Below, piece after piece: positions 34,197 to 36,112 of a DNA stretch of 64,000 nucleotides (its first letter is position 1; each line of letters starts with the position of its first letter). Under the pieces are notes generated by a model that worked only from the letters and a program-made list of their open reading frames with translations, did no database searches and was not told where the DNA came from. The stretch comes from Byssovorax sp. (GTDB lineage Bacteria; Myxococcota_A; Polyangia; Polyangiales; Polyangiaceae), in assembly GCA_025362495.1 (NCBI GenBank), contig JANYGI010000083.1, positions 1 to 64,000 on the forward strand. The letters run 5' to 3'. The position numbers and the translations under genes are program-made.

Positions 34197-34409
34197 ATGG
34201 ACCAGAAGAAACGCGCCGCTCCACCCCGCACGCCGGATCCGCGCGACGAGCTCGATCCGATCCTCGAAAAAAAGCGCGACGAATCGCCGCCCGCGCCGGC
34301 CATCCCCGCGCCCGAGCCGCCGAACACCGACGAAGGCGTTGTCGACGAGAACAGTGACGAATCGTTCCCCGCGAGCGATCCGCCGAGCTTCACGCCCACC
34401 ACGATCTGA
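34197..34409 (+). CDS. Small acidic, disordered hypothetical protein
   Basis: 70 residues from ATG 34197 (GGAGG upstream). Pro/Glu/Asp-rich with no hydrophobic segment. It ends in DENSDESFPASDPPSFTP, a motif (ESFPASDPPS) I recognise from many small stress- or DNA-protection-linked proteins of unknown role in several phyla. Probably intrinsically disordered. Confidence 0.65.
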   Translation: MDQKKRAAPPRTPDPRDELDPILEKKRDESPPAPAIPAPEPPNTDEGVVDENSDESFPASDPPSFTPTTI

Positions 34410-34485
34410 ATCCCCATCGCACCTTGCGCTTGACCCGCGCGCGCCTCCGGCCGCATCGTGGCGCCCCGAAAAGGAGGCCCGATCG

Positions 34486-34845
34486 ATGAGCCGAGCAGAC
34501 TGGTACTATCACCGCAAAGGGTGAATCACGTGCGGTAAAGCGCAGGAGTTTCTTGCGCAAGAGAAGGTCGCGATCGGCGAGCACGCCGACGCCAAGAAGC
34601 AACGTTTCGACCGTGACGAGGCGCTCGCCCTGGCAAAGAAGGCCGAGGTCGTCATCGTCGTCAAAGGCAAGAAGGTAACGAAGATCGACATGAAGAGTCC
34701 CCCCGACGACGACGAGCTCGCGAGCCTCCTGCTCGGCCCGACGGGGAACCTGCGCGCGCCGGCGCTGCGCCGCGGGAAGACGCTGCTCATCGGCTTCGAT
34801 CCCGAGTCGTACGGCCACCTCCTGGAAGGCCGTGACGCTCAGTGA
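34486..34845 (+). CDS. ArsC/Spx-like selenoprotein (in-frame UGA = Sec13)
   Basis: 119 residues if the UGA at 34522-34524 is read as selenocysteine; the terminating stop is TGA 34843-34845. The ATG at 34486 has a perfect AAGGAGG 8 nt upstream. Around the UGA the protein reads WYYHRKG-U-ITCGKAQEFLA, matching the ArsC/Spx active-site pattern Y-x5-C-x2-C-x-K-A with Sec replacing the first (nucleophilic) Cys. The frame stays open and protein-like for 106 codons beyond, ending in LLIGFDPESYGHLLEG. A hairpin resembling a bacterial SECIS follows the UGA. It overlaps the permease start by 14 nt. Function is inferred: a thioredoxin-fold redox enzyme or reductase. A pseudogene or frameshift is less likely given the UxxC alignment and SECIS-like hairpin. 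Confidence 0.85.
34540..34558 (+). promoter_or_regulatory. SECIS-like stem-loop directing Sec insertion
   Basis: In the mRNA GCGCAGGA pairs with TCTTGCGC (8 bp including one G-U), closing a GUU apical loop. The loop G (34548) is 24 nt beyond the last base of the UGA, within the usual bacterial SECIS spacing. The loop begins G-U as in known bacterial elements recognised by SelB. Confidence 0.6.
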
Positions 34846-36112
34846 AGGAGCTTTGACCGGGGTGCCCGCCGAACGGCGGCGCCTCGGCCTCTTCGACGTG
34901 CTGTGCATTGGCGTCAACGCCACCGTCGGCTCGGGCGTATTCACGCTCCCCGACGACATGCAGCGCGAGATGGGCGGGTTTTCCCCGCTCGCGTACCTCT
35001 TCTGCGCTCTCCTGTTACTGCCGGTGGCCCTCTGTTTCGCCGAGCTCTCGGGGCGCTTCGACGAGACCGGCGGCGCGTACGTCTATGCCCGCGCGGCCTT
35101 CGGGCCCAAGGTCGGTTACATCCTCGGCTGGTTCTGCTGGACTGCCACCTTCGTGAGCTGGGCGGCCAACACCACGCTCCTGATTGCCCTCCTCGGCATC
35201 AACCCCTATCCCTTCGGCAAGCCGCTCTGCGCCCTCGCCATCCTCGCGCTCGGCGGCATCAACTACGTCGGGATCAAGCCCGGCGCGTGGACAGTCAACC
35301 TGGTGGTGATTGGCAAGCTCAGCGCCATCGCCTGCTTCCTCGCTGTCGCGTTCTTCTCGTTCAGCCCCTCGCGCTTCGGGGGCGCGCTGCCGCACGGCGC
35401 CGCCGGCGTCGGGCAAGGCATCTACCTGGCGCTGTTCCCGCTCCAGGGGTTCGAGGTCGCGCCGGTCGCGGCGGGCGAGACCCGGAACCCCCGCCGCAAC
35501 GTGCCTCTCGCGACGATGGGGACGCTGTTCTTCTCGGCGATCTTGTTCATCATCGTCCAGACGGCGCTCGTGGGATCGTACCCTGATCTCGCGCTCGACT
35601 CGCAGCAGCCGCTCACCGACGCGGCTCGCCACCTCGGCCGGACGATTGGCATTCTCGTCTTCGCGGGGAGCATGATCTCCATCGGCGGGTTCAACGCTGG
35701 CAGCGCCCTCGGCTCGCCGCGCTACGCCCGGGCCATCGCGGCTCATGGGCTCCTTCCCTCGCAGCTCGCCAGGATTCACCCGCGCTGGTCGACACCGCAC
35801 ATCGCCATCGTCACGACCACGCTGCTCGCGACGTCCCTGGCGATCTTCTTCGACTACCGTCAACTCGTCGGGATGTCGAACATCACCGTGGTGATCCAGT
35901 ACCTCTTCACGTGCCTCGCGGTGCCGTTCATCCGGCGAAAGCAGGCCGGGAAGAGCACCGGCTGGGTGATCCCGGGCGGCCCTACCGTGCCGATCCTGGG
36001 CGCGATTGGCTCGCTCGTCCTCCTGCGCGGGGCGAACCTGGCCGAGGTGATCTTCGCGGCGTCGGCGCTCGTCGTGGGCGTGATTGTCCTCACCGTGCAG
36101 GGCAAACGCTGA
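34832..36112 (+). CDS. APC-superfamily amino-acid permease
   Basis: 426 residues from GTG 34832, overlapping the selenoprotein by 14 nt. Twelve transmembrane helices are predicted. The APC helix-1 signature GVNATVGSGVFTLPDDM includes the unwound GSG segment that binds the amino-acid backbone. TGGAYVYARAAFGPKVGYILGWF and the GFEVAPVAAGETRNPRRNVP loop are also characteristic. It is probably an inner-membrane amino-acid or amine transporter or exchanger; substrate not predictable. Co-transcription with the selenoprotein suggests a linked thiol or amino-acid metabolism, which is speculative. Confidence 0.9.
   Translation: MTLSEGALTGVPAERRRLGLFDVLCIGVNATVGSGVFTLPDDMQREMGGFSPLAYLFCALLLLPVALCFAELSGRFDETGGAYVYARAAFGPKVGYILGWFCWTATFVSWAANTTLLIALLGINPYPFGKPLCALAILALGGINYVGIKPGAWTVNLVVIGKLSAIACFLAVAFFSFSPSRFGGALPHGAAGVGQGIYLALFPLQGFEVAPVAAGETRNPRRNVPLATMGTLFFSAILFIIVQTALVGSYPDLALDSQQPLTDAARHLGRTIGILVFAGSMISIGGFNAGSALGSPRYARAIAAHGLLPSQLARIHPRWSTPHIAIVTTTLLATSLAIFFDYRQLVGMSNITVVIQYLFTCLAVPFIRRKQAGKSTGWVIPGGPTVPILGAIGSLVLLRGANLAEVIFAASALVVGVIVLTVQGKR

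Follow-up and report, generated by a model that had tools for sequence, protein, structure and literature searches.

A UGA codon read through in the 64,000-nt stretch of DNA analysed here (the window) joins two parts of what is probably a genuine selenoprotein gene belonging to the NF041106 family, encoding a thioredoxin-fold selenol/thiol oxidoreductase with a UxxC motif and a Sec13-Cys16 mechanism. The reading frame, its relatives in other genomes, the machinery for selenocysteine insertion, and a hairpin downstream of the UGA bear on the first part of this assignment, and conserved residues and a predicted fold bear on the second.

Reading frame and family assignment

The frame opens with an ATG at 34486, meets an in-frame TGA at 34522-34524, and closes with a final TGA at 34843-34845 (Table 1). 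An earlier note on this DNA had proposed these limits for a 119-residue product read through the UGA, together with a Shine-Dalgarno sequence and the expectation that standard gene calling would miss or truncate the gene. Coordinates and translation were confirmed on all three counts: AGGAGG stands 8 nt ahead of the ATG, and the mechanical list of open reading frames of at least 80 residues holds for this frame solely an entry stopping at 34524, with no in-frame entry downstream of the UGA. Because the list breaks the frame at 34524, ordinary gene calling would lose the gene, and it is by comparison that this easily missed gene is confirmed.

Table 1. Positions of the features at the selenoprotein locus in the window
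Feature	Position	Strand	Remarks
Shine-Dalgarno AGGAGG	34472..34477	+	8 nt upstream of ATG
ArsC/Spx-like selenoprotein gene, NF041106 member	34486..34845	+	Frame through UGA, 119 residues
In-frame UGA, residue 13, putative selenocysteine	34522..34524	+	Aligns with Spx Cys10
Cys16, second UxxC residue	34531..34533	+	Putative resolving role; identical in 110/110 rows
bSECIS-like hairpin	34540..34558	+	8-bp stem, loop GUU 34548-34550 (nt 24-26 past UGA)
Arg90-Ala91-Pro92	34753..34761	+	Identical in 110/110 rows; putative cis-Pro loop place of thioredoxin fold
APC-family amino-acid permease, next gene	34832..36112	+	GTG 34832 or GTG 34862 just past selenoprotein stop

The window protein matches the NCBIfam model NF041106, 'ArsC family (seleno)protein', at 132.8 bits over profile positions 2-107 of 107, against a curated cut-off of 85 bits. 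Given this score, and homologues in several phyla that have a similar length and carry UGA at the same codon, the coherent read-through frame is, as judged by sequence comparison, not a product of chance. The UGA occupies the identical codon in 113 of 114 alignment rows. Searches of genome contigs found 451 relatives, and the best 80 of these, taken for comparison of the site, carry UGA (79) or Cys (1, L078), so that the alignment with homologues suggested in the earlier note leaves its proposal standing; Cys forms may be commoner among farther relatives, because only the best 80 of the 451 were compared.

Genomes of the same phylum (n = 282; Myxococcota, to judge from named relatives) contain 48 NF041106 matches over the cut-off, in 47 genomes and with one TGA in each match, and among the 183 genomes of the order, a set that overlaps that of the phylum, 12 are over the cut-off, every match again with one TGA. 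Matches below the cut-off in both sets are for the most part ArsC-like proteins that lack a TGA. The close family consists almost wholly of selenoproteins, in Planctomycetota, Myxococcota, Acidobacteriota, and other phyla, and this near-universal retention of selenocysteine argues that it supplies a needed property. Plasmid records gave no match to the selenoprotein sequence. A tree of 114 rows and 116 columns leaves 44 of its 111 inner branches open and does not place the window gene.

Selenocysteine machinery and the bSECIS-like hairpin

The source genome (10.8 Mb, 240 contigs) was searched for selA, selB, selC, and selD, as the earlier note had advised. Matches to selA (460.9 bits), selB (270.6 bits), and selD (317.7 bits, with one in-frame TGA; G000:C13:87497-88426) each lie above their own cut-offs, and a tRNA-Sec scoring 70.3 bits, with the anticodon tca according to ARAGORN, adjoins selB at 84 bases from the selB match (L138; G000:C216:15000-21000). 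The set is complete, and the claim of a selenoprotein gene survives this check. A selA match (E ≤ 0.001) is present in 46 of the 47 genomes with NF041106, compared with 179 of 282 genomes of the phylum overall (Fisher P 1.5e-9), 170 of the 282 having selA above the selA cut-off; the lone over-cut-off genome without a selA match (G191) is 85% complete.

A hairpin directly after the UGA with a G in its apical loop, the pattern by which a bSECIS element is recognized, is found in the window gene and in its relatives. Rfam at gathering scores gave no match within the window. Among the 113 rows with UGA, GTT lies at nt 24-26 past the UGA in 111, and the best hairpin has its loop at place 22 or 23 in 101 and carries G as one of the first two bases of that loop in 109. 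With the register taken as the best for each row, the paired positions i and j sum to 50 in 78 rows, 51 in 27, 49 in six, and 52 in two. The 27 rows in register 51 are exactly the 27 that have the residues S-K/R-F/V-L, the others having forms such as Q-E-F-L, and in these rows the amino-acid change was accompanied by a new pairing, shifted by one base, that left the loop bases as they were.

The mean number of stem pairs, counted with mismatches tolerated at the two loop-adjacent pairs, is 6.97, compared with 4.45 (sd 0.19) in controls in which codons were redistributed among rows sharing the amino acid in a column, a procedure that does not preserve relatedness; none of 300 controls was as high. 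Folding energy relative to synonymous recodings gave a mean z over the 113 rows of -1.07 in the 15 codons that begin at the UGA and of -0.88 when counted from the fifth codon; ten places elsewhere in the gene gave values between -0.44 and +0.44. The hairpin of the window itself has a z of -0.03, with 46% of synonymous controls as low. The stability signal resides in the set of relatives, and the window hairpin alone is unexceptional.

Active site, conserved residues, and predicted fold

Translation and alignment give the active site of the window protein as U13-I-T-C16. The earlier note had set U-I-T-C-G-K-A on the CxxCxKA site of ArsC and Spx proteins, with selenocysteine at the nucleophile, and the alignment agrees, placing U13-x-x-C16-x-K-A on C10-x-x-C13-R-K-A of Spx; as a refinement of that claim, the UxxC site is closer to Spx than to classical ArsC. 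Conservation was assessed over 110 rows in the printed columns, leaving out four distant rows (L131-L134), and residues identical in all 110 are W6, R10, residue 13 (U or C), C16, L23, G61, G84, G87, R90, A91, P92, and G103. In a family alignment of 50 rows, R90 is the sole invariant arginine.

The best PDB match to the single window sequence is YffB (1rw1, E 1.4e-5), followed by Streptococcus mutans Spx, and the best matches to the family profile are 2m46, a putative arsenate reductase (45.1 bits), and then Spx (41.8 bits). An AlphaFold2 model built from 50 sequences with Cys in place of Sec has a mean pLDDT of 93.8 and a pTM of 0.84, and Foldseek and VIA-align matched it to Spx, YffB, ArsC-related proteins, and glutaredoxins. 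For structures of the ArsC/Spx/YffB type the matches are loose but extend along the full length, with Foldseek TM values of about 0.5 and rmsd of 6-7.5, and in VIA-align with Z from 9.2 to 7.2 and rmsd of 2.6-5.3. For glutaredoxin-like proteins the matched region spans 71-76 residues, with rmsd of 2.1-2.8 and Z from 8.0 to 7.2. As most Z values lie within one unit of each other and near the level that the tool calls 'common', the fold search backs a thioredoxin-type fold and ranks no relatives. Two strands of the model, at 55-60 and 63-68, form a predicted beta hairpin (55-68) in a region where published ArsC-fold proteins have part of a helical bundle.

Proposed mechanism and alternative functions

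With the machinery and the hairpin as its grounds, the proposed mechanism would begin with SelB, carrying Sec-tRNA, binding the hairpin at nt 16-34 past the UGA, upon which selenocysteine would be inserted as residue 13. From its place where helix 1 begins, Sec13 would attack a disulfide or some other substrate with oxidised sulfur or selenium, Cys16 would resolve the adduct to give a Sec-Cys bond, and a cellular thiol system would reopen that bond. The oxidoreductase assignment draws on the UxxC motif, on the invariance of R90-A91-P92, and on the fold of the model, and it is preferred over a regulator or an arsenate reductase in view of the absent Spx G52 segment and the alignment of Spx R60 with G61; the looseness of the fold matches counts against it. 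By these comparisons, the selenoprotein would not be a regulator of the Spx type and is probably not an arsenate reductase.

An arsenate reductase that uses selenocysteine together with glutathione/glutaredoxin or thioredoxin is improbable, even though the name given to the family in the literature is arsenate reductase, or arsenate reductase-like protein. Pfam ArsC (PF03960) is the sole Pfam match of the window protein, yet its 20 bits fall below the gathering score, which is 24. H9-x3-U13 is similar to the opening half of the published HX3CX3R motif of ArsC, but the arginine of that motif would stand at position 4 past U, which is variable in the 110 family rows (T 48, G 24, K 13, V 10, and A 8 being the five commonest). 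The classical ArsC triad comprises Arg 60, 94, and 107, three arginines reported as essential in the E. coli enzyme, against the single invariant R90 in an alignment made up of the 50 family rows; this argument is not decisive, because the conserved Lys 60 and Lys 62 could substitute. A Pfam scan of five neighbouring open reading frames, each translated in its correct frame, found no ars gene.

An Spx-like transcription regulator with a redox switch, in which the Sec-Cys pair would replace C10-C13, is similarly doubtful. U13 and C16 do fall on C10 and C13, R90 aligns with the arginine of R-x-P in Spx, the family profile has Spx among its best PDB matches after 2m46, and the window protein has in common with Bacillus subtilis Spx the ArsC-type thioredoxin fold, with UxxC in place of CxxC. 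Against this, Spx residues T49-G52, as counted on the alignment, form an insertion relative to the family profile, so that the G52 segment is absent from the window protein, and Spx R60 lies opposite the invariant G61. G52 is required for binding of the alpha-CTD and R60 for activation, according to an Spx study (PMC2801614). The beta hairpin predicted in the middle of the window protein lies in the region of Spx helix alpha-4. The Spx/MgsR family model TIGR01617 scores 30.9 bits, short of its cut-off of 75.05. A UGA acting as a real stop, in a pseudogene or through a sequencing error, has nothing in its favour beyond the fact that the hairpin of the window is not exceptionally stable, and this reading was dropped as scarcely credible in view of the recurrence of UGA in all but one of the aligned rows, the conservation that continues past it to the C-terminus, and the selenocysteine machinery of the genome.

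Relation to described families

The selenol/thiol oxidoreductase proposed here matches NF041106 (ArsC_rel_Se_1) over its full length and over the cut-off, with UxxC, selenocysteine at the same place, and no essential difference. In a 2026 review (PMC13188914), NF041106 is listed as a UxxC 'Arsenate reductase-like protein' and arsenate reductase is named among selenoproteins whose functions are largely uncharacterised. The review says the same of nearly all such selenoproteins, in line with the earlier note's view of a named family with an undescribed role. The literature found, which covered only part of the relevant work, contains no description of an activity for the NF041106 family. As the family is already in print, the window gene is a new member rather than a new kind.

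For NF041106, the review cites the Global Ocean Sampling selenoproteome of 2008 (PMC2398784), which lists 'Arsenate reductase 2' (cd03032, UxxC), an ArsC/Spx-type selenoprotein like that of the window, the likeness being one of description, not of sequence. The 'Arsenate reductase' selenoproteins of the Sargasso Sea (PMC1088965; TIGR00014 in PMC13188914) likewise belong to an ArsC-fold family and have selenocysteine at the ArsC nucleophile, but their motif is UxxS, and the review gives them a separate entry. YffB, represented by the Pseudomonas aeruginosa protein that is the best single-sequence match and by that of Brucella melitensis (2kok), is described as a glutathione-binding protein with an ArsC fold and one of the three ArsC arginines; the B. 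melitensis protein differs in having a single Cys, without CxxC, and an alpha-helical bundle as a second domain.

Three minor points appear to be new, namely a sister subfamily under the cut-off, the shifts of hairpin register linked to amino acids, and the presence, in 8 of 12 genomes of the order, of an amino-acid permease next to the gene.

Genomic neighbourhood and the permease

The genome contains four matches to Pfam AA_permease_2, and that of the permease following the selenoprotein gene in the window scores 141.4 bits. Of the 12 genomes of the order that are over the cut-off, 8 have an APC permease next to the selenoprotein gene (loci noted: 34832-36112, L010, L011, L013, L015, L168, L169, L171, and L172). 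The two genes stand in tandem in the window and in G371, which also shares the two genes that come next, and they are divergent in six genomes of genus g215, four of which are Polyangium records (L010, L011, L013, and L015). No such permease turned up in the portions read of G337, G349, G120, and G306, the last two of which are cut by contig ends. That the pair is kept in two orientations suggests, on purely positional grounds, a possible link.

Clustering of stop-to-stop open reading frames around 114 loci, in flanks that reached 3 kb at most (some loci had about 1.5 kb, and flanks were shorter at contig ends), gave only two clusters with at least six loci, of nine and eight, drawn from largely the same loci and with median places more than 2 kb away. 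These flanks held no gene common as a neighbour across phyla and no pointer to a substrate. Just upstream of the selenoprotein gene, an open reading frame of 70 residues (34197-34409, + strand) ends in ESFPASDPPSFTPTTI; it presumably resembles small conserved proteins, and no NCBIfam match was obtained in its frame.

Sister subfamily and divergent copies

A sister subfamily with the signature FYGRxUTGCxPVREFL was found in six genomes of the order (L150-L155; G234, G285, G159, G286, G316, and G239), with UGA and a GTT loop in all six. Its scores against NF041106 are 54-63 bits in the genome search and 60-69 bits for three of the proteins with Cys written for U, all under the cut-off of 85 of the present annotation model; no other NCBIfam model matched these three at its own cut-off. 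The pattern of the sister subfamily gave 11 matches in viral contigs, none of which was confirmed. A starred clade of the tree unites 26 of the 27 S-K/R-F/V-L rows with one of three sister-subfamily rows.

A broader and quite tentative reading, unlikely to hold in full, is that NF041106 and the sister subfamily form a separate, nearly Sec-only branch of UxxC oxidoreductases in which part of the helical subdomain of ArsC/Spx has become a beta hairpin, and that in Polyangiaceae the protein might work with the permease, for example on an imported sulfur or selenium amino acid.

One family copy with UGA (L136, in G005) has a frame that leaves its relatives about 25 residues past the UGA, the remainder matching in another frame, and is taken as a pseudogene or an assembly error. 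A further ArsC/Spx-like frame, at L134:3012-3353 (- strand), reads YWKSTUTTC, with UGA where CxxC would begin; its genome has a selA match, and the frame lies nearest to TIGR01617, at 52.3 bits against the cut-off of 75.05.
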